Positions 2,575 through 58,655 of a stretch of 64,000 bases of DNA are shown here, piece by piece (position 1 is the stretch's first letter; each line of letters begins with the position of its first letter). This DNA is from Phytoseiulus persimilis. Lineage: Eukaryota; Arthropoda; Arachnida; Mesostigmata; Phytoseiidae. Location: NCBI GenBank assembly GCA_037576195.1, contig CM075103.1, positions 24,428,001 through 24,492,000 of the forward strand, in the 5' to 3' direction. The position numbers were made by a program, and so were the translations under genes. The notes beneath the pieces are model-generated. The model worked only from the letters and a program-made list of their open reading frames with translations. It was not told the DNA's origin and did no database searches.

Positions 2575-2991
2575 TGGTGGCAGCGAGTTAAACGACCCCA
2601 GCCAGTCTCAAGAAGAAGCGTCAACCAGGATTCCAGATCCGCCGATTCAGGCGGCGTGACTTCGGACAGAGTTCGTCGCATTATTCAGTTCATCCAGACG
2701 GCCGAAGAGGGCAATCAGCTATCGAGGAGTCCTCACAGTCCCACGTGTGACTCGCAGCGGATATTTCGGGGAAATATCCAAGCTCCAACAACTTCAAAAG
2801 TGCTGCGTCAGCGAAGGCGTTCCTCACGCGCGCATCCCGCAATCGGTGTCCGGCTCCAGTGCTTCAAGTGCAACCACCCCAGGCGGCTGGATTTCATTAC
2901 CAAGGCGAGTCCAGTTCGTTGATTTGCTTTTCCGAGGCTCAGCGCGCCGACACTGTCACGGCCGCGAGAGGTTCCGGAATCAGTCTCGACG
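2575..2991 (+). promoter_or_regulatory. BEL-1 primer-binding site and leader
   Basis: Directly after the LTR comes tggtggcagcgag. It begins with TGG, the complement of a tRNA CCA end, as expected for a primer-binding site. The rest of the leader up to the gag-like frame at 2992 shows no other recognisable feature. Confidence 0.5.
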
Positions 2992-3767
2992 ATGGCGTCC
3001 ACACCGTTGGAGGACGCCGATCAGCTCGAGCTGGACGCCGAGACACAGCTCAGGTCCCGAGTCCCAACCGTCGAGGAACAGACAGAGTTCACCACATTGA
3101 TCGAGGTGCGACGGAACGTCAGAACTAGATTCACGAAGAAAGCTAGGGACCTCGAGGCGAAGACGGAGGTTGAAGTACCAGCGGAAAGATTGACGCGGAG
3201 TGGCAAGAATTCGATGACATCTACTCGGAGTTGCGCTCACTCAACTCCCAGATCACCCCGCTACTCGTCAAATGCGCCATCGCCCAATTCGACGACGCGA
3301 TGGAGCGGGTTGCAGCTTACGACAAACAGTACGCTCGCACCGTAAGTTTCCTGAAGAAGAAAACGGCAGCAGCGCACGCGAGCCGGTCGAGAGAAGCACC
3401 AGACCACGGGCCGAAGACGCCAGCACCAACCCACGCGTGCCAGACTGCAAGCAATCACTTCAAACTACCGAAGTTCACGGTCGACTTGAAGAGGTTTCGG
3501 GAGTGGTGGCAACTCTTCAACGTCCACGTCCACAAGAGGGGGATGGACCCCATCGAGAAATTCACGCTATTGAAGGAGGCGCTGCAAGGACCCCCATCCT
3601 TCGAGATCGCACACTTAGAATTCAGCCCGGACCAGTACGATGAAGCAGTCAGAATCATTGAGAAGAAATTCGGATGCCAACGCGCAGCTGAGAAGGAGCA
3701 TCCCCAGGAAATCCGGAAACTGTTCCGAAAAAAATTCCGAAAACCGGAAAGCCAGGTACCAGACTAA
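2992..3767 (+). pseudogene. gag: BEL-1 gag, frameshifted
   Basis: The frame starting at 2992 gives a charged N-terminus rich in E, D and R. It shifts at about 3230 into the frame that ends at 3767. The second part has the DUF1759-type gag core of BEL/Pao elements: FKLPKFTVDLKRFREWWQLF, then a segment on FTLLKEAL and a C-terminal ...RIIEKKFG. No zinc knuckles follow; the frame stops at 3767 and the next one resumes at 3788 with the pol linker. At least one frameshift and a missing knuckle/protease region make it non-functional. Confidence 0.8.
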
Positions 3768-3787
3768 GATCCGCACAAGTTGTCAGT

Positions 3788-5570
3788 ATGGCAACAGCAA
3801 CAGCGGTTAGCACGCCGGAAACCGGCACAGCACCGACTACATCCAGTCCAGCTGTTTTGAGCTCAGCCGAAAACGCGCAGTCAGAGACCGCCGACAGGTC
3901 AGCATTCCATGAGGAAATCAAAGCCGACCTGCACCTTCTGTGGTCAACAGAATTGCTGGGGATCGAAGATCCAGGCCAGGAGTCGGGCGACGCGGTCGAG
4001 GCAGAACTACAGATTTTTTTCAAAAACAATCTGGAGAGGCTAGAAGAAGGCCGATACATGGTCAGTCTCCCTTTCAAGGAGAATCTGAGAACGCTGGGGG
4101 AAAAACGAGAATATCGCGCGAGGCAGCTTAAAGAGATTTCTATTCAAGGCTTCCAAAGACAGAGAACTCCTCGCGGCAGTAGATGAAGAGATGAGTCGGT
4201 ACATAGGGAAAGGCTACGCGGAATTAGCATCACCGAAAAGGCCAGGCGAATTAGTTCATTATCTCCCGATTCTGCCGGTGGTCAAGAGAGACCCAGAATA
4301 AAAGCTTCTAAAGGTCAGAGTCGTGAAGGACGCGGGCGCGCACAGAAAGGACGAGGCAGCGCTCAACGACGTTCTCCACGATGGTCCGAACCTATTGCCG
4401 GACATTTTCAAGGTCCTGTTGAGATTCAGAAGGGATGAGATCGCGGTGGTATCGGACAATGAGAAAGCATTCCTACAATACAGGATCCGCCCCGACCACC
4501 GCACTCTCTTGAGATTTTTTTGGGCCCCGGGAATTAGCAGCGATCCGCGGGCGCCGATCAAAGAGTTTTGGAGTACCACGCTCGATTTCGGGACATCAGC
4601 GTCGCCATTCATTCATTGCGCCGGGTTGACGTACCATATCAGATACCTCGCGCAACAACACCCAGACAAAGCACACTTTCTGAAAGATGTAGAACAACAC
4701 TTCTACATGGACGATCTGGTCTTCACAGTAGATTCAGAAAACGAAGGCGCGGAGTGTTTCAAGTTCATGTTCGAGGCGTTCCAGACGGGAGGTTTCAGGC
4801 TGCGGAAATGGGCAACAAATAGTTCAGCGTTAGGTCGAGAGATAGAAAGATCGCTCAGCGACCCAGATGTTCAGATCTCCTTCGATCAAGAGGATTTCAA
4901 ATTCCCAGGAATAAGTTGGAACCAGAAAACAGATCAGCTTCACATAGACGTCGCGCCGGCGATAGAAACACTAGAAGCAAGCATTCCGTCGAAGAGAACC
5001 ATATTGAAGGGCACAGCACAGATTTACGATCCTCTCGGTCTCATTTCTCCGCTCACAGTCAGACCGAAAATACTGCTGCAAACATGCAGGAAACAAAAAC
5101 TCGAAGGGAACACAGAGCTGACAGGAGACACCCGCAGAGAATTCTTAGAAACTACGGACGCGCTCAAACACGCACGGGAATTTCGCATACAACGAAACAT
5201 AAACACAAACGAGCGCGACGTCACCCGAGAACTGCACGTGTTCTGCGAAGCGAGCCTGTCGGCACTCGGATGTGTGGCATACATCAGAGAGATGTCGAAA
5301 CGCCGCTCCGCGCAGATCTTTCTCGTCGCCTCAAAGGCAAGAGTGGTTCAAATAAAATCAACCTACTCGATTCATAAGTTAGAGCTTGTCGGGGCAGTCA
5401 TGGCGGCCAGAATGGGGTCGAGGATCAAGCAGTATCTCAATTATCATTTCGAAGCGACCCATTACTGGTCCGCAACTCCCCGACGCTACACTGGAAACGG
5501 TTCCGGGGAGAGTATCTGTCCTACCTACGTTCCGCACACATTCGGCCACCGGAGGCTCGCAGACCGATAG
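3788..5570 (+). pseudogene. pol: BEL-1 pol: reverse transcriptase and partial RNase H
   Basis: The pre-RT linker typical of BEL/Pao (LLWSTELLGIEDPG, then GRYMVSLPF) lies at about 3930-4100. The frame is broken by stops at about 4185-4320, and the RT core resumes at 4323-5570. The RT catalytic box FYMDDL is at about 4701-4718. RNase H begins with ELHVFCEAS, where the usual first aspartate (FCDAS) reads E, then has the HKLELVGAVMAAR block. At about 5470 the frame jumps from RNase H straight to WKRFRGEYLSYLRSAH, which belongs near the end of integrase. An internal deletion has thus removed the rest of RNase H and the integrase core. The gene then meets the BEL-2 insertion at 5577 and resumes at 13541. 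Confidence 0.85.
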
Positions 5571-5576
5571 CGGTAG

Positions 5577-5979
5577 TGTTGCGGAATCTTCCAAGGTCTC
5601 CCCGGAGACCGTGGAGTTTCGGCAAGCTCCAGAGCACCGCTCTGGAGCTCAGAGTTTCTAGCGTTCCAGGAACGCTACTAGAGTATTATTACGGCCAGTG
5701 GATAGAGGGCCGAGAGTGCATATCTGTCCATCCGAAATAAACGAGCCAACGTTGCACGTCGGCTCCGTGAAGCGAACATCACTGCGGTGTGGTCGACTGT
5801 CTGCAAACAGCCGACAACACACAAGTTGCAACCCGACCGTGAGCGACACGCACACGGTGCGAGCGATACGCTTGCAAATCTCTAACCAAGTTCGCTTTGC
5901 GGAGTCCGGACAGGCGGCTGCGGCCAGTAGACCAACAACCAGTGTCTTTCCTCAAGGATCCCGAGCGGGTTTGGCAACA
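5577..5979 (+). repeat. BEL-2 5' LTR with three hairpins
   Basis: The LTR starts tgttgc and ends gcaaca, a 6-bp inverted end pair. Its first 100 bases hold three perfect hairpins in a row: 5595-5610 (7-bp stem, 2-base loop), 5625-5649 (11-bp stem, loop acc) and 5659-5677 (9-bp stem, 1-base loop). An aataaa lies at about 5737. The 3' LTR lacks 25 bases corresponding to 5621-5645, which destroys the middle hairpin. Confidence 0.9.
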
Positions 5980-6096
5980 GTGGTGTCAGAAGTGGGATAG
6001 AAGAACCCACGCACGCCGGCACGCGACACGTGGTGCTGAGTCATCAACTAAAGTCAAGCGGTTTGAAACCGACACTGCGGTGTTTCCCCTCTCGAC
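5980..6096 (+). promoter_or_regulatory. BEL-2 primer-binding site and short leader
   Basis: One base after the LTR lies tggtgtcagaagtggga, starting TGG as a primer-binding site should. The same 13-base core, tggtgtcagaagt, recurs in BEL-3 (minus strand, 44659-44647). The two elements therefore probably use the same tRNA primer. The leader is only about 100 bases before the gag start codon. Confidence 0.75.
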
Positions 6097-9000
6097 ATGG
6101 CCAGCAAACAAGAGGCTGGAGCGGAGTTGTCATCCGAAGGTACAGGAATGGTGCCACTTCGACAGAAATTGTCTGTGGCGAGGCAGTTGGTCACCAGGGC
6201 GTGCACGAAAGTGCGAGAAGCATTAGCAGGTGATGCATCGGAAAGAACCATCGCGAGCGTGCGCGCGGCGATGGTGTTGTTGCAGAAGCAGGCAGCCCGG
6301 CTTTCGGCGGCGACCGAAGCTGCAATGGAATCCGGGGTATGGACATCAGATCAAACAGAGGCCGAGGTAGCCAAGGTTTTTGACTACGAGGCAAAAGTGG
6401 CCGACATGGAACTGGACGTGGAACAATTCCTGCGGGAAAACGATCCAGGAGCCTATCTGGACGAAAGATCACGAGGAAACTCGATGTCGATCCAGCATCA
6501 GAGCTCAATCGTCGAACCTCAAATCTCGGACACGAGACGACCGGAGGTTCCGAAGACGCCCACGTTTCTACGCACCTCCTGGGACGAGGTGATCAGAAGG
6601 GTTCCGAAGTTCGACGGAGATCCGGTAAAATTCAAGAACTGGCAGAATGCGTTCCGCCTGTACGTAGACTCAACCGACATCGATCCTCTCGAGAAGTTTC
6701 ATCTGCTGAAGGAGACCATTGGAAGAGACGTGGCCAGTTGCATTGCCAGTCTGGAGCTGAATTGCGACAACTACGAAATAGCACGGGACACAGTCTACAA
6801 ACTCTTCGGGCAGACTGCGGTGGCAGAGGACCGTTTAGTCGATAACGTGGTCGAAGCGTGCAACAGAGGAAACCTCAACGACGGCGCGAATTTCGTGAAA
6901 TTCGTGACGGATGTCACACAGAGTATCCAGTCTCTCATCGCACTTGGATACAGCCATGAAGGTCTGTCCCCCTTTCCTACTAGAATAATTATGAAAGCGT
7001 TGCCGTATGATCGTAGGCGAAGATTTGACGACGCAGTAGGTTGGCAAGATGAGGATGAGAGAAGTTGTAGGTTAAAAGAACTGCTGGACTTTCTGGAAGC
7101 TGAACAGTTTCAAGTGAGAAAGTTGTCACCGTCTGTGTTCAGAACACACTCGAGTCCTGTTCCGAGCAAAGGAATGGGAAGAGCTAGGGTCGATGCGTCA
7201 CCTAGAATGCCATCACAGCAAAGTCAGTTCAGCCGAAAGACCAAGCCGAGGTTCAGCCCTGCGGGGCCAACAGGTTCAATGAGCAATCAGCATGCTTTTG
7301 CGGTCACTGCATCTTCGCCCGCGGATCATTCGTGTATCTTTTGCTCAGGACAGCATATTAGTGGTAACTGTAGGAAGCCGATGTCTCCGGAGGAGCGGAG
7401 AAAGTGCGCGACGACAAAGAATGCTTGTTTCAAATGTCTGGATCGGAACCACAGAGTCGACAAATGCAAGGCAAAGGGTTGCGCGAAGTGTGGCAAGGGT
7501 CACCATAAGTTGCTCTGCGTGATGCCGACTGGGGTTGCGGCAGCGGCGCCAGCGGGAAGTCGAGCGGACGTTACCAGCGTGAATTCGATAAAGATCACAA
7601 ACATTTCAGAGAAGAGATTGCCTACGGGTTACGTCGAGGTAGTTTCGGACGAATGCGTGGCAGTAGGTAGAATCGTTCTGGATACGGGGTCTCAGAAAAC
7701 TCTCATCTCCAATAGGTTTGCGAATTTGTTGGGAGCGAAGGAGGTTGGCTCCGAAAACTTCTATCTGCAGTCAGCAGGTCAGGCGCACCCTAAGAAGTGC
7801 AAAGGGAGGATCGTAGAGATCACGCTGAAGAGTAGATTCTCGGACAACCACATGGTCATTTACGCGAGAGCGTTGCCGAACGTGGTGGAGGGTACTCTCC
7901 CGGAGGCTAACTTCACGGGAAACTTAGAGCCGATTGCGGATCGTAATGAGGGAGCGTGGTCGGCAGAGATCTGTATGTTGGTCGGGGTAGACTACTTATA
8001 TCCCATCGTGGGAACGAACACCAAAAAGGTAGGGGGATTCGTTGCGATCGAAACCCTGTTCGGGTATTTTCTATGCGGAACGGGCCAACATCAGGAAATT
8101 AGATTGAACCCAGCTCTCGTGAAAGTGATCCAACAAAAGAGAAAGGCATGGAACGGCAGAGCGGAAAGCCAGCGAGGCGGCAGCGCGACGGTGTCTCTCG
8201 CGGCGACAGTTCGTTCGAAATATGATCCAGAGGACATATCGTTCCTGTGGGATACGGAGGTCCTCGGGATCGAACCGTATTTCAAGGAAAATGATGAAGT
8301 GCCTAATGAAGAGTTGACGGAATTCGTTCGTACAACTACTCAGAGAAAACCCGATGGGAGGTATATTATTCATTTGCCGTTCAAACCGAACAAAGATACG
8401 TTGGGAGACAACCGCGAGCTGACGCTGCGGCGTCTGAAAAGCTTTTTGGCTCAGACAAAAAAGAATCAAGCGCTCTTAGAGGCAGTTGATACCGAAATGG
8501 TGGACCTGTTGGATCAGGGTTTCATTGAGCTTGCGGATTCTCCAGAACCGGGTGAACAATGCCATTATTTACCGTTGCTCGCGGTAATAAAAAAACAAGC
8601 TTCGGCGGAAGCCAAGATGAAAGTCAGAGTGGTGAACGATGCAAGTGCACGTTCGAGGAACGAAGCGGGCTTTAACGACGTGTTGTATCAAGGCGAGAAT
8701 CTCATCGCGGACATTGTGTCAGTCATACTCCAATTCCGGCAGCTTCCGATTGCGATCACAGCTGACATAGAGAAAGCATACCTTCAGTTCGAGATAACTC
8801 CGGAGCATAGGAAGTTTCTGAAATTCTTGTGGCCGATAGGCATAAGTAAGAATCCGAGAGCCCCCCTCAGGGAAATGCAATCGTGTAGGTTATCTTTCGG
8901 GTTGGTCAGTGCGCCTTACCAGCACTGTGCAGGCATCAGGCTCCATTTGGAGAATGAAATCAGGAATCGGCCGCAGGACAAGGAGTTACTCGAGTTCGTG

Positions 9001-11616
9001 AAAAAGTATTTCTATGTAGATGATTTGATCGCAGGCGCAGAGAACGCCGGGAGCGGAGAAAAAGTGGTTGAAATCTTACACGAGTCGTTCAAGGCAGGCT
9101 GCTTTCCGTTGAAAAAATGCTCGACGAACTCTGCGGAGTTGGGTAGATTCATACGACATCGATACCCTGACGCGACAGTCACGTTCGACGACGAAAATTT
9201 CAAGTTTCTCGGTGTGAGATGGAATCAGAAAGAAGACACGATGCACATAGATGTCTCAAAGACGATCGCGTTTTTCGAAACAAGCGTTCCAACGAAACGA
9301 TCTCTACTCAAGGGAGCTAGCCAGGTTTTCGATCCGTTGGGAATCGTGGCGCCGATCTCGTTGGGCATGAAGTGTTTACTTCAGCATCATTGGCAGAAGA
9401 AGCTAGATTGGAACCAGGTTCTGGCTGGGGAAGATCTCGAGCAGTACAGGGATGTCACGCGCAGGCTCGAAAATATCAAGCACATTAGCGTAGCGAGGGA
9501 CTTTCTAGCGGCCAAAGGTAGCCGAGGCACTGCGGTGCGGGAGTTGCACGTGTTTTGCGATGCAAGCCTCACAGGCTATGGGTGCGTGGCATACGCGAGG
9601 GACGTTTCGAATCGAAATCAGATCACGGTCTCGTTGATCATGGCGAAAGGGCGAGTGGCTCCGTTGAAGGGGAATTGGTCAATCCACAGGCTGGAGTTGT
9701 TGGGCGCGGTTTTGGCAGTAAGAATCGCAAAAAAGATCACCCAGGGAGTTGGCTTGCCGTTCGCGTCGATCAATTACTGGTGCGACAATGCATGCTTGCT
9801 AGCTTGGATTCGCGACAAGCCAGAAAGATGGAAGGCGTTCGTCGAAAACCGGGTAAAGGAAATCCAAGCGTCTTCCGAGGCAAGTCAGTGGAGCTATGTC
9901 CGTTCGGAGGAAAACAGTTGCGACTTGCTTTCCAGAAACTCAGCGCTGGATTCGAATGAGCTTCGGAATTTTTGGTTGCACGGCCCAGCATGGTTAAAAT
10001 CCGGCAGGAAACCGAAGGATCATAGCCTGAATCCGAGCGAATATGAGTTCGAAGTCGCGAACGAGAAACGGTCTCAATGTTTCGTAGGATCGGTCGCGGT
10101 GAAACAGGACCCAATCGACATTAAGCCCATGTCATCGTGGGCAAAGACGGTCAGGGTCGTCGCATATTTGCGGCGCTGGAGGGTATTCAGGCGGGAGTTG
10201 AAACCGCAGTGGCTGGCGTCGATCGCCACGAAAGAATACACCAACGCCGAGACAATTATCCTGAAGAACATCCAAGGCCAGCACTTCCATGCGGAGCTGG
10301 AAGCCGGGTTCGAGGAGTTGTCGAAGCGAAGTCAACTATATCAATATAATCCATTCGTGGACAAGCAGGGCCTGATTAGGTGCCGCTCCAGGTTGAACAA
10401 TCTCAAAAATGTTGACTTCGAGACGACGAACCCGATAATATTGCCTGGGGAAGATGCTCTGGTTGATCTGTACGTTCGTTGGACTCACGAAAAAGTGTGC
10501 ATGCATGCGGGCAGCATACCGGGTGTTATGCAGCGGATCAGAAGGCGCTTTTTGATTCTGCGGGGTCGGCGCGCGGCGAAAAAAGCAATCAGTCGATGCA
10601 AAGTGTGCGCGAAGTTCAGAGCTCAGCCAGCTGCGGAGTCTACTCCGGATTTGCCAAAATTCAGAGTCGAGACAGTGCCAGCTTTCAGCACTACGGGGGT
10701 GGACGCGGCAGGTCCGATCTGGATAAAAGATCATAATGGCAAGAAAGCCACGGCGTTCATCATGTTGTTCTGCTGCTCGGTTTCGAGAGCGGTCAGAATG
10801 GAGCTGGTCGAGAACCTGTCGACGTACGAATTTCTTTTGGCAATGAGGAGGTTCTACAATCGGAATCCAACGGTGGTTTGCTTCTTTTCGGATAATGCGT
10901 CATCTTTCCGAAGGGCGGCGAAAGAAATCAAACTTTTGTTCGACTTGGCGAGATCTGAGGAGACTCAGAGTTTTCTCTCAAAGCAGAGGATAGATTGGAA
11001 GTTCAATACGGAAAGAGCACCATGGAGGAACGGATTCGTAGAAAGACTCTTCGGAACGATAAAAAAACCTTTGCGGAAGGTGCTAGGGAAGAATTTACCA
11101 TCATTCAGAGAGCTCGAGACAATTCTCACGGATATCGAAAAAATCGTGAATGATCGACCGTTGGGATGCGTCAGCAACGATCCGAATGAACCTTTGCCAG
11201 TGACGCCGGCGGATTTGCTGTATGGCAACACAACGCGTCCAGCGTTGCCGGAGCTGAACGAGATCTTGGAAACATCGGAATCTGCGACAGCCACAATCTT
11301 GTCAGAACGATGGAAATTCCAGCAAAACATCCTGAATGCGTTCTGGAATAGGTTTCGCCGGGAGTATCTATTTCAACTCAAGTCCAACCTAGGATCTAAA
11401 CCGATTCGTAGCAGATCAATCGAGGTCGGAGACGTAGTGCTGCTCGACGATCCAGCGGCATCAAGAAGCTATTGGCCGGTCGCTAGAGTGCAGTCTCTAT
11501 GCGCGGGTAGCGGAGGAGACGGCAAGATGCGAACGTGCATAGTCAAATTGCCCAATGGGAAAACTTTGAAAAGACCCATTCAACTTCTGTACAAACTGGA
11601 TCTAGCTCAATACTAA
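6097..11616 (+). CDS. gag-pol: BEL-2 gag-pol polyprotein, intact
   Basis: One uninterrupted frame of 1,839 codons starts at the first ATG after the primer-binding site. In order: a coiled-coil-like gag N-terminus (1-160); a DUF1759-type gag core (about 172-330); three CCHC zinc knuckles (about 412-475, e.g. CFKCLDRNHRVDKC); an aspartic protease with LDTGSQ at about 528; the pre-RT linker LWDTEVLGI at about 718; reverse transcriptase with YVDD at about 972; RNase H with FCDAS at about 1153, HRLELLGAV and YWCDNA; an integrase zinc domain (HEKVCMH...CKVCAKF, about 1465-1505); the integrase D,D,E core (GVDAAG about 1534, SDNAS about 1598, FVERLF about 1648); and a DUF5641-type C-terminus. Every catalytic residue I looked for is present. 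The length fits autonomous BEL/Pao elements, so it is probably able to transpose or was until recently. There is no env-like frame on this strand. Confidence 0.95.
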   Translation: MASKQEAGAELSSEGTGMVPLRQKLSVARQLVTRACTKVREALAGDASERTIASVRAAMVLLQKQAARLSAATEAAMESGVWTSDQTEAEVAKVFDYEAKVADMELDVEQFLRENDPGAYLDERSRGNSMSIQHQSSIVEPQISDTRRPEVPKTPTFLRTSWDEVIRRVPKFDGDPVKFKNWQNAFRLYVDSTDIDPLEKFHLLKETIGRDVASCIASLELNCDNYEIARDTVYKLFGQTAVAEDRLVDNVVEACNRGNLNDGANFVKFVTDVTQSIQSLIALGYSHEGLSPFPTRIIMKALPYDRRRRFDDAVGWQDEDERSCRLKELLDFLEAEQFQVRKLSPSVFRTHSSPVPSKGMGRARVDASPRMPSQQSQFSRKTKPRFSPAGPTGSMSNQHAFAVTASSPADHSCIFCSGQHISGNCRKPMSPEERRKCATTKNACFKCLDRNHRVDKCKAKGCAKCGKGHHKLLCVMPTGVAAAAPAGSRADVTSVNSIKITNISEKRLPTGYVEVVSDECVAVGRIVLDTGSQKTLISNRFANLLGAKEVGSENFYLQSAGQAHPKKCKGRIVEITLKSRFSDNHMVIYARALPNVVEGTLPEANFTGNLEPIADRNEGAWSAEICMLVGVDYLYPIVGTNTKKVGGFVAIETLFGYFLCGTGQHQEIRLNPALVKVIQQKRKAWNGRAESQRGGSATVSLAATVRSKYDPEDISFLWDTEVLGIEPYFKENDEVPNEELTEFVRTTTQRKPDGRYIIHLPFKPNKDTLGDNRELTLRRLKSFLAQTKKNQALLEAVDTEMVDLLDQGFIELADSPEPGEQCHYLPLLAVIKKQASAEAKMKVRVVNDASARSRNEAGFNDVLYQGENLIADIVSVILQFRQLPIAITADIEKAYLQFEITPEHRKFLKFLWPIGISKNPRAPLREMQSCRLSFGLVSAPYQHCAGIRLHLENEIRNRPQDKELLEFVKKYFYVDDLIAGAENAGSGEKVVEILHESFKAGCFPLKKCSTNSAELGRFIRHRYPDATVTFDDENFKFLGVRWNQKEDTMHIDVSKTIAFFETSVPTKRSLLKGASQVFDPLGIVAPISLGMKCLLQHHWQKKLDWNQVLAGEDLEQYRDVTRRLENIKHISVARDFLAAKGSRGTAVRELHVFCDASLTGYGCVAYARDVSNRNQITVSLIMAKGRVAPLKGNWSIHRLELLGAVLAVRIAKKITQGVGLPFASINYWCDNACLLAWIRDKPERWKAFVENRVKEIQASSEASQWSYVRSEENSCDLLSRNSALDSNELRNFWLHGPAWLKSGRKPKDHSLNPSEYEFEVANEKRSQCFVGSVAVKQDPIDIKPMSSWAKTVRVVAYLRRWRVFRRELKPQWLASIATKEYTNAETIILKNIQGQHFHAELEAGFEELSKRSQLYQYNPFVDKQGLIRCRSRLNNLKNVDFETTNPIILPGEDALVDLYVRWTHEKVCMHAGSIPGVMQRIRRRFLILRGRRAAKKAISRCKVCAKFRAQPAAESTPDLPKFRVETVPAFSTTGVDAAGPIWIKDHNGKKATAFIMLFCCSVSRAVRMELVENLSTYEFLLAMRRFYNRNPTVVCFFSDNASSFRRAAKEIKLLFDLARSEETQSFLSKQRIDWKFNTERAPWRNGFVERLFGTIKKPLRKVLGKNLPSFRELETILTDIEKIVNDRPLGCVSNDPNEPLPVTPADLLYGNTTRPALPELNEILETSESATATILSERWKFQQNILNAFWNRFRREYLFQLKSNLGSKPIRSRSIEVGDVVLLDDPAASRSYWPVARVQSLCAGSGGDGKMRTCIVKLPNGKTLKRPIQLLYKLDLAQY

Positions 11617-11692
11617 AAGTATCTAGTGGGTAGGAAGTAGGCAGACCAAGTGAAGTTGTATAAAAAGGATATTTATTAACAGCGGGGCAACG
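11617..11692. terminator. Poly(A) signal of the antisense ORF
   Basis: Read on the minus strand, AATAAA occupies 11677-11672, 16 bases past the antisense stop at 11693. The plus strand of this 76-base gap shows nothing else beyond the stop of gag-pol. Confidence 0.55.
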
Positions 11693-12669
11693 CTAGGCTA
11701 GCCGCATCAATCGGAGGGTGCCGTCCGGGAGTCGGACTTTGTAGTAGGGCCCGTCGGCAGGCAGGGCGGCTGGGGCGGCGCGTGGCCGGACGGTGGTCTG
11801 CGAGCGGACCGCTGGGTTGGCGGCGGCTGATGTGTCGGCTGGGGCTGTCGGCGGTGGAACGGTGGTCCGCGAACGGACCGCTGGGTTGGCGGCGGCTGAC
11901 GTGTCGGCTGGGGCTGTCGGCGGTGGAACGGTGGTCCGCGAACGGACCGCTGGGTTGGCGGCGGCTGATGTGTCGGCTGGGGCGGTGTCGGAGGCGTGTT
12001 GGCGAAGGCGTGCCTCGGCGGCGGTGGCGGCACGGAGACGCATCTCCGCGGAGCGAGCTTCGGACTCGAGTCGAGGTGGGGCGGCGGCGAGGGCTTCGGG
12101 TTGATGGGGTGCCGTGGTGGCGATCGGTGACTCACGCGTGGGCCGGGCTTGTTCCTGGTACACGCGTTCGCGAGCCTCGTTCTCCTCATTCGTGAGTCGG
12201 GCGGCCTCGTTCCGGCGGCGCACCGCTTCCTCGAGGAACCGGTGGCGGGACCGGCTGGTGTCGGTAACGGAGGGGAAGGGGAGATGGCGTCCGCACAAAG
12301 CCAACGCATTGACAGCGGCGACGGCGGCGTCGGGGCAGCCCGTGCCCCGCAGGGCACGGGTTGTGTCGCGTAGGATACCTTGTTGGGCCGGCGTTAGCGT
12401 CTCATTGAAGTAGAAGGCCACCAGCTGAGAGCGGTCGACAGCGGGAAGGGTCCGGAACTCGTCGGACGTGGCGAACCACAAAGCGGCCAACACCCCGCAG
12501 GGCGAGGTCCGGTACTGCTGCTGGCGGTACCGCGGGACCTCCTGGTGGTGGTGTGCCGCGAACGGGACGTCGTCGGTGGGGTGAGCTCCAGGTCGTCTTC
12601 GGTGGGGACGAACTCAGTCGCACTGAGTCGGGTCGGCGAGGCACCAGGCGGACGTGATTCAGCCATCAT
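11693..12669 (-). CDS. Antisense ORF of BEL-2, unknown function
   Basis: This ORF runs opposite to gag-pol, between pol and the 3' LTR. The first ATG (12669) opens a frame beginning MMAESRPPG. It must shift by one base near a short C-run at about 12574 to enter the long frame that ends at 11693; with the shift the protein is about 325 residues. Parts: an acidic start (TEFVPTEDDLEL), a Q/H-rich stretch, a central helical block with CGVLAALWF and GCPDAAVAAV, a charged coiled-coil-like segment, three tandem 23-residue Pro/Ala repeats (unit beginning APADTSAAANPAV, about 11810-11990), and a short basic tail. A TATA-like box and AATAAA sit at the right places on this strand. No known family is recognised. 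BEL-1 has an ORF in the same place with a faintly similar core. The single shift may be decay or a sequencing error. Confidence 0.5.
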
Positions 12670-12754
12670 GTGGGGAGTCGGCGGAGCGAGGCTAAGATGC
12701 GTTCGTTTCGATAAGCCGGAGAACAAGCAGGTCTCAGAGGTCTGCGGACCTAGG

Positions 12755-12761
12755 TTTTATA
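12755..12761 (-). promoter_or_regulatory. TATA-like box before the BEL-2 antisense ORF
   Basis: The minus strand reads gtataaaacc here, with TATAAAA at 12761-12755. This is about 90 bases upstream of the first antisense ATG and would give a leader of roughly 60 bases. It is one of few AT-rich spots in a GC-rich stretch. Confidence 0.4.
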
Positions 12762-13162
12762 CTTTTCCAAGGGGGAGAAAACTTCCGAAAGGCGGGTCCA
12801 GTGGAATCTCAGAGAACTATGCGTGGTTCTGATTTGTCACTCAAAATCGCGTGTTCAACTCGGTTGACTTGCATAAGTGGTTCTCGTGTTTCCGAAACAG
12901 GCTCGCGTTTCTCACAGGCGTTCTCGGTCGTCGATCTCAAGAAATGGTACCGCGGATTTAGAAAGTCATCCATTCTAAAGCAAGAAGGAAATTAGCCAAC
13001 CAATATGAAATATATGCAATGTGAATTGGTTGAATGACCGCATGAAGAAGTGTCAAGTGTAATTCAAGTTTGTATGGACTCAAAAAGAGATGTCCGATGT
13101 ATACACGACAAAATTGTCCCAGATGTTAACAGGGTCAGAACCGCTGCGGCGGTTGCCGGGAG
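12762..13162 (+). other. BEL-2 3' untranslated region
   Basis: No frame with recognisable content lies here on either strand. The last bases before the LTR read gccgggag, short and only partly purine. BEL-1 has the matching ccgggag before its 3' LTR, so this is probably the plus-strand priming site shared by the two elements. Confidence 0.4.
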
Positions 13163-13540
13163 TGTTGCGGAATCTTCCAAGGTCTCCCCGGAGACCGTGG
13201 AGTTTCAGCTCAGAGTTTCTAGCGTTCCAGGAACGCTACTAGAGTATTATTACGGCCAGTGGATAGAGGGCCGAGAGTGCATATCTGTCCATCCGAAATA
13301 AACGAGCCAACGTTGCACGTCGGCTCCGTGAAGCGAACATCACTGCGGTGTGGTCGACTGTCTGCAAACAGCCGACAACACACAAGTTGCAACCCGACCG
13401 TGAGCGACACGCACACGGTGCGAGCGATACGCTTGCAAATCTCTAACCAAGTTCGCTTTGCGGAGTCCGGACAGGCGGCTGCGGCCAGTAGACCAACAAC
13501 CAGTGTCTTTCCTCAAGGATCCCGAGCGGGTTTGGCAACA
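13163..13540 (+). repeat. BEL-2 3' LTR
   Basis: This 378-bp copy matches the 5' LTR throughout except for a 25-base gap that removes the middle hairpin. It ends gcaaca and is followed by the target duplication ggtag. Confidence 0.92.
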
Positions 13541-13724
13541 GGTAGGAAACGTTTGCCTCCTTAAGGACGCAAGTCCTTCACGAGCGCACTGGCCGTTGTG
13601 TCGCGTACTCGGTCTTTCCGGCGGGGAGAGAACGGATCGACGCAAGCGATCCTGCCTAATCAAGACGGCCACAGGCCAAACGTTGAATCGTCCAATACAA
13701 CTACTATTCCCACTCGAGGTCTAG
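13541..13724 (+). pseudogene. pol: BEL-1 integrase C-terminal tail (DUF5641-like)
   Basis: After the BEL-2 insertion the frame VGNVCLLKDASPSRAHWPLC continues to RPIQLLFPLEV and stops at 13724. This is the tail that closes BEL/Pao integrase; compare RVGDVCLLED in BEL-3 and VGDVVLLDD in BEL-2. Across the empty site it joins the fragment at about 5480-5570 with one frameshift. Confidence 0.85.
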
Positions 13725-13796: not shown

Positions 13797-15771
13797 TCTA
13801 TATATATAAAAATCCAGGGTCTGTTTGTTTGTTTGTTTGTTTGTTTGTCTGTTTGTTTGTTTGTCCTCAATAGGCTCCTCCGGTATTGATCGGATCTACT
13901 TGGAACAAACTGCATAATGTAGGGCGACTCACCGGGAAGGACATAGGCCACCCACCCCTCCCCCCCTCCCCTCCCCTCCTTCCCCCCTCGCGATTTACCC
14001 CAACTTTGACCCCCTCCATACTGTCACCCGCATCCAAATTCTGACGATAAGGTGCACCGCCCCGTTATGACGCCAGCCAGATTCATCCCATCGTCATCGG
14101 ATATCCTTCCCCACCTCCTCTCCTATACATCTATCATAAAAATTCCTGGAGGGGTGATTTAGAGACCAATAAGGCCATTACTTCCCAACTCTGGAGGGGT
14201 GATTCCGAGACCAATCTGGCCATTAGTTTCCAACTCTGGAGGGGTGATTACGAGACCAATCTGGCCTTTAGTTTCTAACTCTGGAGGGCTGATTGCGAGA
14301 CCAATCTGGACATTACTTTCCAACTTTGGAGGGGTGATTCCGAGACCAATCTGGCCATTACTTTCCAACTCTGGAGGGGTGATTCCGGGACCAATCTGGC
14401 CATTACTTTCCAACTCTGGAGGGATGATTCCGGTGCCAATTCGACCATTAGTTTTCAACTCTGGAGGGGTGATTCCGGTATCAATCTGGCCATTACTTTC
14501 CAACTCTGGAGGGGTGATTCCGGTGCCAATTTGACCATTAGTTCTCAACTCTGGAGGGGTGATTCCGGTATCAATCTGGCCATTACTTTCCAACTCTGGA
14601 GGGGTGATTCCGGTGCCAATTTGACCATTAGTTTTCAACTCTGGAGGGGTGATTCCGAGACCAATCTGGCCATTACTTTCCAACTCTGGAGGGGTGATTC
14701 CGGGGCCAATCTGAGCATTACTTCCCAACTCTGGAGGGGTGATTCCGAGACCAATCTGGCCATTACTTTCCAACTCTGGAGGGGTGATTCCGGTGCCAAT
14801 TTGACCATTAGTTTTCAACTCTGGAGGCGTGATTCCGAGACCAATCTGACATTACTTCCCAACTCTGGAGGGGTGATTCCGAGACCAATCTGAGCATTAC
14901 TTCCCAAATCTGGAGGGGTGATTCCGAGACCAATCTGAGCATTACTTCCCAACTCTAGAGGGGTGATTCCGGGGCCAATCTGAGCATTACTTCCCAACTC
15001 TGGAGGAGTGATTCCGAGACCGATCTGAGCATTACTTCCCAACTCTGGAGGGGTGATTCCGAGACCAATCTGAGCATTACTTCCCAACTCTGGAGGAGTG
15101 ATTCCGAGACCGATCTGAGCATCACTTCCCAACTCTGGAGGGGTGATTCCGAGACCGATCTGAGCATTACTTTTCAACTCTGGAGGGGTGATTCCGAGAC
15201 CAATCTGAGCATTACTCCCCAACTCTGGAGGGGTGATTCCGAGACCGATCTGAGCATTACTTTTCAACTCTGGAGGGGTGATTCCGGGGCCAATCTGAGC
15301 ATTACTTCCCAACTCTGGAGGAGTGATTCCGAGACCGATCTGAGCATTACTTTTCAACTCTGGAGGGGTGATTCCGAGACCAATCTGAGCATTACTCCCC
15401 AACTCTGGAGGGGTGATTCCGAGACCGATCTGAGCATTACTTTTCAACTCTGGAGGGGTGATTCCGGGGCCAATCTGAGCATTACTTCCCAACTCTGGAG
15501 GGGTGATTCCGAGACCAATCTGAGCATTACTTCCCAACTCTGGAGGGGTGATTCCGGGACCGATCTGAGCATTACTTCTCGAAACCTTAATGCTGACCCA
15601 GTGAAGAGAAGGAAAAGTGCCTCGATCCCAGGTCAGAATCCTATCGAGAATCGGTGGCCACCCCCGAAGGTGTCCCGATGACACCGCATGTTAGGCAAGG
15701 TGTGTCTGTCAGCAGTAGACTCCCAAAGCAAGGGACGGGCCAGCCAGCGTAGTCGGCCGAAGGCCGGCTAG
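13797..15771 (+). mobile_element. Helitron-1, non-autonomous, satellite-bearing
   Basis: It starts TCTATATATATAAAAATCC after an A and ends in CTAG before a T, the standard Helitron ends and target. Just before CTAG lies a 3' hairpin (gtcggcc-gaa-ggccggc). A GTTT microsatellite follows the 5' end. About 320 bases of 5' unique sequence lead to roughly 32 units of a 45-bp satellite, then a 3' unique part starting aatgctgacccagtgaag. That 3' part recurs at the end of the Helitron at 51541-58705. No protein is encoded, so it depends on a partner such as the RepHel at 19924-25542. Confidence 0.8.
14151..15575 (+). repeat. 45-bp satellite array, about 32 units
   Basis: The unit core is ctggaggggtgattccgaga followed by ccaatctgrscattact and a short pyrimidine-rich linker. 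The period is 45 bases with no unrelated spacer. Most units on the left read ctggccatta and those on the right ctgagcatta, so the two halves expanded from different variants. All long frames here follow from the period being a multiple of three. Confidence 0.95.
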
Positions 15772-16286: not shown

Positions 16287-16860
16287 TCCTTACTATATAT
16301 AATCGGCTTAGTCTGTCAGTTTGTCAGTTTGTCCGCACTTTTCCTGAAAGACATGAAGGTGATTCTGGGACCAATCCTTACTATCCTTATCCTTACTATA
16401 TATAATCGGCTTAGTCTGTCAGTTTGTCAGTCAGTTTGTCAGTTCGTCCGCACTTTTTCTGGAAGACATGAAGGTGATTCCGGGACCAATCCGAACATAC
16501 TCTCCCGAGTCTGGAGATCCTTACTATATATAATCGGCTTAGTCTGTCAGTTTGTCAGTTTGTAAGTTTGTCCGTACTTTTCCTGAAAGACATGAAGGTG
16601 ATTCTGGGACCAGTCCTTACTATCCTTATCCTTACTATTCTTACTATATATAATCGGCTTAGTCTGTCAGTTTGTCAGTTTGTCAGTTCGTCCGTGCTTT
16701 TCCTGAAACACATGAAGGTGATTCTGGGACCAATCCTTACTATCCTTATCCTTACTATATATAATCGGCTTAGTCTGTCAGTTTGTCAGTCAGTTTGTCA
16801 GTTCGTCCGCACTTTTTCTGGAAGACATGGAGGTGATTCCGGGACCAATCCGAACATACT
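16287..16860 (+). repeat. Five serial copies of the Helitron-2 5' end
   Basis: The end sequence TCCTTACTATATATAATCGG (or a slightly decayed form) recurs at 16287, 16390, 16518, 16629 and 16749. Each copy is followed by gtctgtcag/tttgtcag runs and a block reading acatgaaggtgattctggga. Spacing is 100-130 bases. Only the last copy leads into the satellite. Confidence 0.8.
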
Positions 16861-19290
16861 CTCCCGAGTCTGGAGAGGTGATTCCGGTAAGAGTCTGACT
16901 GTACTTTTCAAAAGCTGGAGGGGTGATTCCGAAACCAATCTGAACATACTTTTCAAAACCTGGAGGGGTGATTCTAGAACCAATCTGACCATACTTTTCA
17001 AAACGTGGAGGGGTGATTCTAGAACCAATCTGAGCATTACTTTCCAACTCTGGAGGGGTGATTCCGAGACCAATCTGAGCATTACTTTCCAACTCTGGAG
17101 GGGTGATTCCGGGGTCAATCTGAGCATTACTTTCCAACTCTGGAGGGGTGATTCCGAGACCAATCTGAGCATTACTTTCCAACTCTGGAGGGGTGATTCC
17201 GGGACCATTCTGAGCATTACTTTCCAACTCTGGAGGGGTGATTCCGAGACCAATCTGAGCATTACTTTCCAACTCTGGAGGGGTGATTCCGGGGTCAATC
17301 TGAGCATTACTTTCCAACTCTGGAGGGGTGATTCCGAGACCAATCTGAGCATTACTTTCCAACTCTGGAGGGGTGATTCCGGGGTCAATCTGAGCATTAC
17401 TTCCCAACTCTGGAAGGGTGATTCCGGGGTCAATCTGAGCATTACTTTCCAACTCTGGAGGGGTGATTCCGGGGTCAATCTGAGCATTACTTTCCAACTC
17501 TGGAGGGGTGATTCCGAGACCAATCTGAGCATTACTTTCCAACTCTGGAGGGGTGATTCCGGGGCCAATCTGAGCATTACTTTCCAACTCTGGAGGGGTG
17601 ATTCCGAGACCAATCTGAGCATTACTTTCCAACTCTGGAAGGGTGATTCCGGGGTCAATCTGAGCATTACTTTCCAACTCTGGAGGGGTGATTCCGAGAC
17701 CAATCTGAGCATTACTTTCCAACTCTGGAAGGGTGATTCCGGGGTCAATCTGAGCATAACTTTCCAACTCTGGAAGGATGATTCCGGGGTCAATCTGAGC
17801 ATTACTTTCCGACTCTGGAAGGATGATTCCGGGGTCAATCTGAGCATTACTTCCCAACTCTGGAGGGGTGATTCCGAGACCAATCTGAGCATTACTTTCC
17901 AACTCTGGAAGGGTGATTCCGGGGTCAATCTGAGCATTACTTTCCAACTCTGGAAGGATGATTCCGGGGTCAATCTGAGCATTACTTCCCAACTCTGGAA
18001 GGGTGATTCCGGGGTCAATCTGAGCATTACTTCCCAACTCTGGAGGGGTGATTCCGAGACCAATCTGAGCATTACTTTCCAACTCTGGAGGGATGATTCC
18101 GAGACCAATCTGAGCATTTCTTTCCAACTCTGGAGGGGTGATTCCGGGGTCAATCTGAGCATTACTTTCCAACTCTGGAAGGATGATTCCGGGGTCGATC
18201 TGAGCATTACTTCCCAACTCTGGAGGGGTGATTCCGAGACCAATCTGAGCATTACTTTCCAACTCTGGAAGGGTGATTCCAGGGTCAATCTGAGCATTAC
18301 TTTCCAACTCTGGAAGGGTGATTCCGGGGTCAATCTGAGCATTACTTCCCAACTCTGGAGGGGTGATTCCGGGGTCAATCTGAGCATTACTTTCCAACTC
18401 TGGAAGGATGATTCCGGGGTCAATCTGAGCATTACTTCCCAACTCTGGAGGGGTGATTCCGAGACCAATCTGAGCATTACTTTCCAACTCTGGAAGGGTG
18501 ATTCCGGGGTCAATCTGAGCATAACTTTCCAACTCTGGAAGGATGATTCCGGGGTCAATCTGAGCATTACTTCCCAACTCTGGAGGGGTGATTCCGAGAC
18601 CAATCTGAGCATTACTTTCCAACTCTGGAAGGGTGATTCCAGGGTCAATCTGAGCATTACTTTCCAACTCTGGAAGGGTGATTCCGGGGTCAATCTGAGC
18701 ATTACTTCCCAACTCTGGAAGGGTGATTCCGGGGTCAATCTGAGCATTACTTCCCAACTCTGGAGGGGTGATTCCGGGGCCAATCTGAGCATTACTTTCC
18801 AACTCTGGAAGGGTGATTCCGGGGTCAATCTGAGCATTACTTCCCAACTCTGGAGGGGTGATTCCGGGGCCAATCTGAGCATTACTTTCCAACTCTGGAA
18901 GGGTGATTCCGGGGTCAATCTGAGCATTACTTCCCAACTCTGGAGGGGTGATTCCGGGGCCAATCTGAGCATTACTTTCCAACTCTGGAGGGGTGATTCC
19001 GAGACAAATCTAACCATTACTTTGCAAATCTAGAGGGGTGATTCCGGGACCAATCTGAGCATTACTTTCCAACTCTGGAGGGGTGATTCCGAGACCAATC
19101 TGAGCATTACTTCCCAACTCTGGAGGGGTGATTCCGGGGTCAATCTGAGCATTACTTCCCAACTCTGGAGGGGTGATTCCGGGGCCAATCTGAGCATTAC
19201 TTTCCAACTCTGGAGGGGTGATTCCGAGACAAATCTAACCATTACTTTGCAAATCTAGAGGGGTGATTCCGGGACCAATCTGACCATACT
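16861..19290 (+). repeat. 45-bp satellite array, about 54 units
   Basis: This is the same 45-bp family as in Helitron-1. The variable middle is mostly gagacc, ggggtc or ggggcc, and the linker tttccaac or ttcccaac. A sub-variant with ctggaagg(a/g)tga clusters at 17400-18920. The left edge grades into the leader through diverged units (cttttcaaaagctgg). A near-identical pair of edge segments ending in tttgcaaatctag lies at about 18970-19030 and 19200-19260. Confidence 0.95.
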
Positions 19291-19923
19291 TTTTTGAGTC
19301 TGGAGAGGTGTCCAGGAAGGCGGTTCAGGAATCGATTCTGACCATACTTTTCGAGGCCGATGGATGCAATTTCGAAATAAATTCAGACCATGTTTCTCGG
19401 AATCTTCAGAGTTCTACGATAGTATCCGACAGAGTTCGAGAAGTTCTATTAGAATCAACAGAACCATTCACGGGAGTCTATGGAGGACCCCAGAGCCTCC
19501 TCCAGCGTTCACACGATTCTACAGAACCGTCCACAAATGCCTCCAAGACCATCTCTGATTGTTTTGTTGTTCAAACAACCGCTCCTAGAACCTCTCATGT
19601 GAGAGATGACGACGAATGTGAAAAAAGAGGGCTATCTAGACCCATCAGATGCAGGAGAAAGAAATCGAGTGTGTAGAACTATTTGAGAGAGGGTTTTACA
19701 CCAAACATGGGATCAGAATCAGGGCGTTTCTAGAATCTCGAGTAGAGGGGTACTCACGAGCCCAGAGACGCTACAAACATTCAAACGAACAACTCTGTTC
19801 ACGTGCCGTGTTCTTTCGAATCCTCTTCAATCGATTGCAGGACTTCCAATTTTGATTGAAAACCAGCGATTCACGTGGTGGAATCGTTCAAATAATCCGA
19901 GTTTTTCACGAACTGCTGAACAA
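19291..19923 (+). other. Helitron-2 leader between satellite and RepHel gene
   Basis: Unique sequence of about 0.6 kb. It starts as diverged satellite-like text (gaccatactttt...tctggagaggtg) and then becomes ordinary sequence without a recognised gene. It probably holds the RepHel promoter, but no clear TATA box stands out. Confidence 0.4.
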
Positions 19924-22900
19924 ATGGGTTCAAGGAGCTCAGAAGAAGACAGTGATACACGGTACGAAGTGGTGAGTGAACATGAACGTGAATACGCAGC
20001 ATCAGAAGACAGTGATACACGTTACGAAGTTGTGAATGAAAATGAACGTGAATACGCAGCATCAGAAGACAGTGATACACGTTACGAAGTTGTGAATGAA
20101 AATGAGCGTACATGCGCAGCATCAAAAGAAAAAAGCGAAAGAGGTCAAGAAACTGAAACACGATCCGAGAAGACTGCTACGGATGAAGCCGAGAAAAAAA
20201 CTCAGCGTCGAGCTCGAGAAGCTGAAAGGAAGGCTAGAAAGAGAGCTTCAGAGAAAACTGAAGAAACGTTTCAACGTCGGATACGACAAGCTGCAGCACA
20301 ATCCGCGAGACGAGCTTCCGAAACGACGGAACAAATAACTCGGCGTCGAGCTCGAGATGCGGAGGCGAAAGCCAAAAAGAGAGCTTCGGAAAGAACCGAA
20401 AAAGCAATCCAACGTCGGATTCATGAAGCTGAAGCGCAACGCTCAAGGAGGGCTTCAGAAACTTCGGAAGAAACAACTCAGCGTCGAATCCGTGAAGCTG
20501 AAGCGCAATCCACGAAGAGAGCTTTAGAAACACTCGAGGAAAAACTTCGGCGTCAAACTCAAGAAGCTGAGGCGCAATCCGAAAGAAGGGCTTCGGAGAA
20601 CGCCGAAGAAGCAGTTAGACGTCGAATTCGTGAAGCTGAAGCGCAATCCTCGAAGAGAGCTTTAGAAACACCCGAGGATACTCTTCAGCGTCGAACTCGA
20701 GAAGCTGAAGCGCAATCCAGAAGAAGAGCTCTGGAGGAAGCCGAAGGAGCAATTAGACGTCGGAGTCGAGAAGCTGAAGCGCAATCCTCAAAAAGAGCTT
20801 TAGAAACACCCGAGGAAACACTTCAGCGTCGAACTCAAGAAGCTGAGGCTCAATCCGAAAGAAGGGCTTCGGAGAACGCCGAAGAAGCAGTTAGACGTCG
20901 AATTCGTGAAGCTGAAGCGCAATCCTCGAAAAGAGCTTTAGAAACACCCGAGGAAACACTTCAGCGTCGAACTCAAGAAGCTGAGGCTCAATCCGAAAGA
21001 GGGGCTTCAGAGAACGCCGACGAAGCAGTTAGACGTCGAATTCGTGAAGCTGAAGCGCAATCCTCGAAAAGAGCTTTGGAAACACCCGAGGAAACACTTC
21101 AGCGTCGAACTCGAGAAACTGAAGCGCAATCCAGAAGAAGAGCTCTGGAGGAAGCCGAAGAAGCAGTTAGACGTCGGAGTCGAGAAGCTGAAGCGCAAGG
21201 TACGAAGAGGGCTTCTGAAACAGCCGAGGAAACGATTGAACGTCGGATGCGAGAAGCTGAAGCTCAAGTCTCTCGAAGAACCGCTGAAACCACCGAAGAA
21301 ACGACTCAACGACGGATCCGAGGAACTAGAGCACAAGCCGCAAGAAGAGCTTCAGAATCCACAACCGAACGCAACTTGCGCCTTTCATCTGACGCCGAAC
21401 TACATCGATCAATGCGTGCTATGAATCTGAGTTCACAGATCGCTCTGGACTCTAGAGAAGTCGGAGCGCATTATCTAGGTCCGATGTGTCACCAATGCGA
21501 ACATTGTCGCGCAAAACATTTCGCGGCCGAACGGAAACCACAGCATCCAAATTTATACTTGGATTGTTGCAATCTTGGCAGATTTCTCCTCAACAAATTC
21601 GACAATTTTCCGCATGTTCTACGACAACTCTTGGTTCGCGGATCAGACTACAGCGCCGAATTTCTGCATCTCCAAAAGAACTTCCACGATCTAATTCGAA
21701 ATTTTAACTCCTCACTCGCAATGGCTTCTATGGGCGCGCAAATCATCAAACCCCGTGGAAGGGGACCATACACTTTTCGTATACATGGGCAGATATACCA
21801 TAACATCGGACCACTGCACCCTGCCAATGATGAAAACGGACAATTCGGACAGATTTACATCCTGGATACCGCGGAAGCGGCGGCTCAAAGGTTACGACTT
21901 CCGCAGAACATTCAATGCAACCCAGGACTACTCGAAAACTTGGGCGCGCTCATCGCTGCAGTGAACCCCTACGCGCGATCCTATAGGATGATGGCGGAAC
22001 TCGAAAGAGCCGAGATGATGGCTGCACGACAAGAAAACCGCACCCCCCTGAACATAACCATGGTTTTTGATGATGTTCGCCCGAGAGGAATCCAAGGAAG
22101 ACTATACGACCTGCCAACAACAAACGAAGTTGCAGTTGTATACGTCGGAGACGATGGTGACGTCCCACCTACACGATCCATTTGCATTCATGAAAGAGGA
22201 GGTACGCTGATAAATATCTCGCACCTAGACAAACGTTGTGATCCGTTGACATACCCTCTACTTTTCCCCACAGGAGAAGATAGTTGGGAACCTTCTCTGC
22301 GAGACAACCGAGGGAAAAGAATTACTCAAAAGCAATTTTACTCCTATTTGTTCGCTGTCCGAGAATCGTTCAATCCCATCCAGCACGCTGGCAAGCTATT
22401 TCAGCAATTCGCTGTTGATTCTTTCGTGAAAATTGAGCAAAATAGATTGAATTACTATCGACAGAACCAAGCTCAAATACGTGCAGAATCTTATCAGAAA
22501 CTTCAAGATTTCTTGGCCGAATGCGACGACAAGTCGGGTCCTGCAGGTCGTCGTATAGTGTTGCCATCCACTTTCATTGGATCGCCACGGCACATGCAAC
22601 AGAGCTATCAAGACGCGATGGCCATTGTTGCCCGTTTCTGGAAGCCAGACATATTCATGACAATAACTTGCAATCCCAAATGGAGAGAAATACGAGAGAA
22701 TCTGTATCCTGGACAGGCCGCCGAAAATCGCCCGGATTTGGTATCGAAAGTCTTCAAATACAAACTGAAAGAAATTTTCAACGACCTATTACAGAAGAAA
22801 GTGTTCGGTGACATCGAAGCATACGTCATGGTGGTGGAATTCCAGAAGCGTGGTTTACCACACTGCCACACATTGCTCATATTAAAAGAGCAATTCAAGC

Positions 22901-33663: not shown

Positions 33664-33713
33664 GAGGCACACCATGAGAGAGAGAGAGAGAGAGAGCATC
33701 GCAACCGCGAGAG

Positions 33714-58600: not shown

Positions 58601-58655
58601 TTGGAATGCTGACCCAGTGAAGGGAGAGAAAAGTGCCTCGATGGTAGGGAGCGCC

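Follow-up and report, generated by a model that had tools for sequence, protein, structure and literature searches.

A putative minus-strand gene between pol and the 3' long terminal repeat of a BEL/Pao element from Phytoseiulus persimilis, with relatives in sister families

Can an animal retrotransposon of the BEL/Pao group carry a gene on its minus strand? The question is raised by a 64,000-nucleotide stretch of the Phytoseiulus persimilis genome (GenBank assembly GCA_037576195.1, contig CM075103.1, positions 24,428,001 to 24,492,000; C3:24428001-24492000 in our locus naming), referred to here as the window. In it, a BEL/Pao element at 5577-13540 has, between pol and its 3' long terminal repeat (LTR), a long open frame arranged tail-to-tail with pol. 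The initial annotation of this DNA had proposed a minus-strand accessory gene equipped with a TATA-like box and a poly(A) signal, a proposal that is now supported by purifying selection, conserved signals and homologous antisense genes in sister families. Comparison of these sequences makes it very probable that the frame is a selected, protein-coding minus-strand gene of a BEL/Pao lineage, and we infer from them that it is transcribed and functional.

In the window copy, the minus strand offers ATG codons at 12669 and 12666 and a TAG stop at 11695-11693, so that ATG to stop covers 977 nt, about 325 codons with one frame change. Most of this length belongs to a main open frame of 306 codons plus stop (11693-12613; 11696-12613 from stop to stop), recognised as an open reading frame, in the alignment of copies and by its substitution pattern, whereas the first 29 codons (12583-12669) are out of frame with it. 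The length of about 325 codons had been given correctly by the initial annotation, which placed a slip at a C-run near 12574; alignment with sister copies favours instead a short deletion at about 12.58 kb, and the window copy therefore looks truly broken. The predicted protein consists of a conserved N-terminal domain, Pro/Ala-rich tandem repeats (69-nt spacing, 11767-11991, minus strand, varying in number between copies) and a conserved C-terminal motif. The signals that had been described around the frame are found where they were expected: the TATAAAA box, put at about 90 bases before the first ATG, occupies 12761-12755 on the minus strand, its first T lying 92 bp upstream, and the AATAAA, put at 16 bases past the stop, occupies 11677-11672, just past a stop codon that ends at 11693. 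It has also been observed that the C-terminus of the antisense frame, YKVRLPDGTLRLMRLA (11696-11743, minus strand), resembles the nearby C-terminal motif of pol, VKLPNGKTLKRPIQLL, on the opposite strand, either by chance or through a duplicated hairpin.

The length of such a frame could reflect nothing more than base composition. The region has a GC content of 62-75% and contains two more open minus frames, of 228 and 151 codons. When 11617-13163 was shuffled with its dinucleotides kept, a frame of 306 codons or more arose in 5 of 500 cases; none of 500 reaches the 374 codons of the unbroken copy L010 and one of 500 reaches the 332 codons of L009, both measured from stop to stop. Owing to this composition, frame length alone is modest evidence. 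As judged from the sequences, it is conservation between copies, and not openness, that lifts the antisense frame above chance, and a chance open frame in GC-rich DNA is contradicted by the substitution ratios, signals and orientation of the copies to the point of having a negligible probability.

Copies were searched in the same genome, a 181-Mb assembly of 127 contigs. The window family, designated type A, is represented by 13 loci, and the pol of the gene-bearing copies is 82-100% identical to that of the window over its C-terminal 239 residues or the part matched. The antisense gene is unbroken in three of them, namely L010 (344 codons), L009 (324) and the second copy in L011 (289). Selection was analysed in the N-terminal part of six copies, which gives 15 pairs of 109-144 codons each. 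The ratio of nonsynonymous to synonymous substitution rates (dN/dS) places the antisense frame under purifying selection, with a median of 0.20 (0.04-0.37); no stops occur in it, and its changes are distributed over the three codon positions as 145/129/344, an excess at third positions. These six copies have a median of 0.19 over the C-terminal 158 codons of pol, with 10 stop-bearing codon pairs skipped and L009 having a stop there. The N-terminal part of the antisense gene is thus constrained about as strongly as pol. In neutral simulations, at most 3 of about 200 runs per pair were as low as the antisense frame, in all 15 pairs. For the non-coding stretch that separates the promoter from the 3' LTR, the medians were 0.52-1.28 over the six frames, with wide scatter among single pairs and nearly even codon positions. 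Over the whole type A gene, six longer copies compared with L010 have ratios of 0.32-0.43, above the N-terminal values, and the repeat-rich remainder is therefore less constrained.

The wrong frames of the gene region have ratios of 1.12-2.36, except for one sense frame that is phase-coupled to the antisense frame, their third positions coinciding, and whose median is 0.36. This exception is the basis on which a conserved gene on the sense strand might be proposed, the antisense signal being its shadow. Such a gene is highly implausible, taking into account that the sense frame holds stops (1-6 in each of nine sequences of type A and of types B and C, introduced below) and that its ratio is above that of the antisense frame.

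The putative signals are conserved together with the coding part. In a DNA alignment, TATAAA is kept in 11 of 12 type A copies, with TATGAA in L016 as the exception, and AATAAA past the stop is kept in 9 of the 10 copies retaining that end, L009 reading AATGAA. Among the aligned copies, 10 of 12 being scored, identity is 89-96% from the TATA box to about +40, falls to 60-76% in the rest of the 5' untranslated region (UTR) and returns to 88% around the ATG. The poly(A) signal is found some 55 bp past the stop of pol, on the opposite strand, and the predicted antisense mRNA would therefore hardly reach pol.

The antisense gene belongs to a wider family. When L012, a divergent copy, was used as query, open frames 26-30% identical to it were retrieved, some of them adjoining pol of sister families, and three types of the gene could be distinguished: A, the window family; B (L028/L051, L049, L050, L052 and L053), whose pol, where found, is 64-77% identical to that of the window; and C (L034-L036 and L038-L040), with pol 68-70% identical. 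A domain of about 100 residues is common to the three types, with 17 invariant columns in an alignment of 13 sequences. After it comes a low-complexity middle whose make-up depends on the type (Pro/Ala repeats, EQERAAAEEAARL-like repeats or Pro-rich repeats). Independent profiles match one another with E-values of 3.7e-8 (A-B), 6.4e-6 (A-C) and 4.7e-9 (B-C), and none of 60 column shuffles scored as high in any of these comparisons. In the N-terminal part, dN/dS is 0.037-0.172 for type B (10 pairs) and 0.035-0.116 for type C (3 pairs), and none of 200 simulations was as low in any pair.

These data also bear on the idea that the antisense RNA is itself functional, for instance through transcriptional interference, the frame being incidental. 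Conservation of the promoter and poly(A) signal would suit such an RNA, and an antisense non-coding RNA is on record for Drosophila micropia, according to excerpts of PMC7264820; however, the codons of the antisense frame are selected about as strongly as pol, and the protein domain is still recognisable at 26-30% identity, which leaves this explanation very improbable.

In type C, the antisense 5' UTR contains a GTAAGTT...TTTC(C)AG pair, its members 81-86 nt apart and ending 5-7 nt before the ATG. This pair was looked for at 10 loci and is kept in all six that hold the domain (L034, L035, L036, L038, L039 and L040), spanning three sublineages despite the divergence of the surrounding sequence. 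Read in the antisense direction, it has the appearance of a normal small intron; in the sense genomic RNA the pair does not form a splice unit and would therefore survive reverse transcription. Such a candidate intron speaks, as a separate line of sequence evidence, for antisense transcription in this sister family.

More distant BEL families, with pol about 39-48% identical, have a smaller antisense gene, type D, of 133-172 codons in ten aligned loci, most of which share the C-terminus ...QTDAYEMGL..LSPFV. One of them, of 137 codons, lies in the same window (26131-26541, minus strand) within the remnant of another BEL family. In seven loci, 20 of 21 pairs have a dN/dS of 0.066-0.613, 19 of them below all 200 simulations, it having to be noted that dS is near or above 1 in many type D pairs, whose ratios are rough. 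Most type D proteins contain a (G/E)TQT(D/N) stretch near the C-terminus (SQTD in the window copy), which we take to resemble the binding motif of dynein light chain LC8. A type E gene of 202 codons (L061:179-784, minus strand) adjoins a BEL pol of 41% identity whose open frame has 2094 codons; a second copy, 99% identical, and more diverged relatives were found. Homology of type D to types A, B and C has been considered and is not claimed, because the hhalign E-value is 0.036 and 1 of 60 column shuffles is as high, the motif spacing being suggestive; against A, B and C separately, 34, 3 and 16 of 60 shuffles are as high. A relationship of type E to profile A2 or to type D was likewise discarded, no similarity having been found. 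Among 11 further BEL loci examined downstream of pol, a conserved antisense gene was shown in L058 (type D) and L061 (type E); L057 has a type D gene broken by a stop, L056 has a weak profile match only (E 0.0024), and no antisense gene was established downstream of pol at L054, L055, L059, L060, L062, L063 or L064.

When the five types are taken together, 82 antisense loci are obtained (merged search rows at E<=1e-3, repeats of a locus left out), 45 of which are convergent with one of the 150 pol rows listed and none of which has the other orientation. It might be thought that the frame is a captured host gene, or a passenger, rather than a gene of the element, as its base composition is distinct and up to 37 of the 82 loci have no pol within 2 kb among those 150 rows. 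However, three of these loci (L014, L016 and L017) do have pol, L049 and L050 adjoin an LTR, and many others are short fragments; moreover, the word-based database search found no homologue outside these loci, and the types track the divergence of pol and keep one position. A captured gene is thus very improbable, and an element gene remains the preferred reading.

Several observations weigh against a selected gene and have to be taken together. On the objection that the frame might be absent from other copies, or randomly disrupted in them, the result is mixed: 10 of the 13 type A loci, the window copy included, are broken, truncated or deleted, and several relatives have lost the gene, whereas what remains of it is constrained like pol. 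Related loci wholly or mostly without the gene number at least eight, against 13 type A loci of which three are unbroken; they include L020, with an open pol frame of 1860 codons, L022 and L030, as well as L026, L033, L044 and L048, and L021 keeps only the ends of the gene. The core promoter varies between types, as TTAAAAC replaces the TATA box in all four type B loci checked, and TATAAA is present in one of five type C loci checked (L036), the other four reading AATAAAAC. AATAAA is found near the stop in only two of these four type B loci and in four of the five of type C, some of the misses being truncated frames, and neither a consensus TATA box nor AATAAA was found at any of the 10 type D loci. 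Two type D pairs also depart from the general trend, L066-L067 (dS 0.031) with a dN/dS of 1.46, and L058 with the window copy, whose ratio is equalled by 3 of 200 simulations.

The protein itself has given no convincing match, which counts on the same side. No Pfam family was found at E<=1 in 13 members of the N-terminal domain, the longer proteins also being without a match; the best E-value in a sequence profile search of the PDB, 0.07, is not convincing; and no database homologue was found at E<=1 for the type A protein or profile A2, with a method that needs shared 5-residue words and from which relatives of 25-30% identity may escape. A pol control matched 192 proteins, and the database therefore covers such elements. 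A single-sequence AlphaFold2 model of the window frame is poor, with a mean pLDDT (predicted local distance difference test) of 52.8; it presents low-confidence N-terminal helices, one long helix and a more confident C-terminal hairpin. Profile A2 also gave 91 pattern matches in viral_contigs, none of them confirmed, and no Pfam match was obtained for the type E protein. No hydrophobic segment resembling a membrane span occurs in the proteins examined, the highest 19-residue Kyte-Doolittle mean of type A being 1.01; the antisense strand and the lack of such a segment do not fit an env or env-like gene, which would lie on the sense strand and have membrane-spanning segments.

What, then, might the product do? 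The copies that have lost the gene are informative in this respect. Thus, L020, L022 and L030, whose pol is 97-98% identical to that of the window over the part compared, have in common one deletion that removes the gene up to its first codons, and their outer flanks are unrelated in all three comparisons, which implies three or more transpositions of the gene-less form. The opposite case is L049 (122-2966), which has two LTRs, a 5-bp target-site duplication (TSD) and an unbroken type B gene of 341 codons without gag-pol, the loss of which may predate or follow the insertion. Since gene-less copies have spread, the antisense protein is not needed in cis, and we infer that it would act, if at all, in trans.

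The following mechanism is suggested by the arrangement of the sequence. Transcription of a short antisense mRNA would begin at a TATA-type core promoter situated between the gene and the 3' LTR and would end at the AATAAA past the stop of pol, and so avoid pol. The product of this mRNA would be a protein of about 290-345 residues, with the conserved N-terminal domain, the repeat-rich middle and the short conserved C-terminal motif. Made separately from Gag-Pol, the protein could form multimers and act in trans. Its most likely role seems to be that of an accessory protein regulating the RNA or the particles of the element, by analogy with the antisense accessory proteins of retroviruses and plants, which are thought to act so; the assignment as a regulator is tentative, at somewhat less than even chances.

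The main functional rival is a suppressor of silencing, a protein mainly countering the small-RNA silencing of the host by binding RNA or the silencing machinery, given that the element's own antisense RNA risks the formation of double-stranded RNA. From the layout, the antisense mRNA would complement about 1 kb of genomic RNA; the fast divergence between families (26-30% identity) would fit an arms race; and the proteins examined of types A, C, D and E, a single one per type, are basic, being rich in Arg and nearly free of Lys, with isoelectric points (pI) of 8.95-9.83. However, the type B protein is acidic (pI 6.05), no known silencing-suppressor domain was found in Pfam or PDB sequence searches, and copies without the gene have spread, so that this role appears unlikely, and a trans-acting regulator of element RNA or particles is preferred to it.

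In a broader proposal, the interval between pol and the 3' LTR would be, in the BEL/Pao elements of this lineage, an old slot for minus-strand accessory genes, occupied by at least three antisense lineages (A/B/C, D and E) with their own promoters, one type being spliced, which would be selected and act in trans, an ambisense strategy not described for BEL/Pao. The chances of this proposal, as read from the sequences, are about even. If confirmed, an antisense gene family under selection would mean that ambisense coding exists in LTR elements of animals, as it does in a few retroviruses and plant elements. One genome offers unbroken copies, natural deletion derivatives and a gene-only derivative, and the reason why such genes arise repeatedly becomes testable. 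Besides, annotation that takes the strand of an element from its pol would miss or mislabel antisense genes.

With regard to the host element, its limits (5577-13540) were read from the sequence. It is flanked by a GGTAG TSD, read directly on both sides (5572-5576 and 13541-13545), and begins with a 5' LTR of 403 bp (5577-5979, plus strand), which aligns with the 3' LTR of 378 bp (13163-13540, plus strand) over 378 of 378 identical bases plus one 25-nt indel. Taking into account this identity and the GGTAG duplication, the insertion is recent. The region directly after the 5' LTR (5980-6096, plus strand), which is matched in sister copies, presumably acts as primer-binding site and leader. The gag-pol frame (6097-11616, plus strand) is open over 1839 codons, in which Pfam finds Peptidase_A17 (8e-44), DUF5641 (9e-14) and DUF1759 (1e-8) above cut-off, and RVT_1 (2e-4) below it. 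On these domains the element is assigned to BEL/Pao, a single gag-pol frame containing a Pao-type peptidase, a reverse transcriptase (RVT_1 being below its cut-off) and a C-terminal DUF5641. The paired LTRs (403 and 378 bp) lie within the range of 0.2-1.2 kb given for BEL/Pao in the available text of PMC8742986, and the TSD is short. The reverse transcriptase region of pol, which served as the database control mentioned above, has A17 in all of the 120 matches listed, and the top four matches with an organism name come from the predatory mite Galendromus occidentalis, which points to a mesostigmatan mite as the probable host. A COX1 search gave no match in the assembly. The element appears to have been inserted into an older BEL pol, as a pol-like C-terminal frame follows the 3' LTR; the older gag-pol lies at 2747-5570 and 13546-13724, apparently split by the insertion.

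Elsewhere in the window, an open Helitron-type frame of 1951 codons (19687-25542, plus strand; Helitron_like_N, PIF1) has a long repeat-rich N-terminal extension. Minisatellite arrays at 14041-15684, 16478-19033 and 51421-58827 have open frames of 15-residue repeats on either strand; the spacing, as measured within the first 20 kb of the window, is 45 bp. An acidic-repeat frame of 258-260 codons occurs three times (33678-34460, 48356-49132 and 60910-61686), with no Pfam match in the one copy scanned.

How does this gene compare with known systems? In its gag-pol with the expected Pfam domains, its LTRs and its 5-bp TSD, the host element agrees with known Belpaoviridae. According to the available text of PMC8742986, BEL/Pao elements are described as having gag-pol and at most env; the word "antisense" is absent from the main text of that overview and of PMC3118150, and no report of an antisense gene in BEL/Pao was found in the open-access literature, among the titles and abstract openings of the matches listed.

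The initial annotation had likened the gene in layout only to the antisense genes of retroviruses and plant elements, and this view holds, no shared domain having been found. With HBZ of HTLV-1, APH-2 of HTLV-2 and ASP of HIV, which are antisense genes of retroviruses, it shares the condition of a minus-strand accessory protein in an LTR-bearing element. HBZ has a bZIP domain, whereas neither bZIP nor TRP28 (PF04195) was matched in Pfam scans of the N-terminal domain and the longer antisense proteins; the HTLV antisense promoter is inside the 3' LTR, whereas the BEL TATA box (12755-12761) lies outside the 3' LTR, which starts at 13163.

A similar layout is found in plants, where Grande, RIRE2 and PvRetro13 are Gypsy elements. 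Their aORF-3R genes (maize Grande gene23, rice RIRE2, Silene Retand, PvRetro13) are antisense, occupy the interval that separates pol from the 3' LTR, occur in the majority of the copies of a family and are of unknown function, according to excerpts of PMC7264820 and PMC11963269. The BEL genes share this position and a conservation like that of pol. For Retand, also Gypsy, 72 of 104 antisense ORFs have a known domain, 57 of them TRP28 (PMC11963269, available text), whereas the BEL antisense proteins have no Pfam domain; conversely, type C of BEL has a conserved antisense splice-site pair, and the word "intron" is absent from the available text of the Retand paper. For Grande gene23, transcription is driven by a promoter of its own, upstream of the gene (PMC7264820, in excerpt), whereas the promoter of the BEL gene is predicted from sequence, with TATAAA in 11 of 12 and AATAAA in 9 of 10 type A copies. 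Boty elements of Botrytis and Sclerotinia, which are fungal LTR elements, are described as having an antisense aORF after pol and before the 3' LTR (PMC7264820, in excerpt); they resemble the present case in being outside plants and in this position, and differ in being fungal. Antisense genes are, in sum, already known in plant LTR elements and in retroviruses, and the BEL/Pao case is, as far as could be found, a new one.
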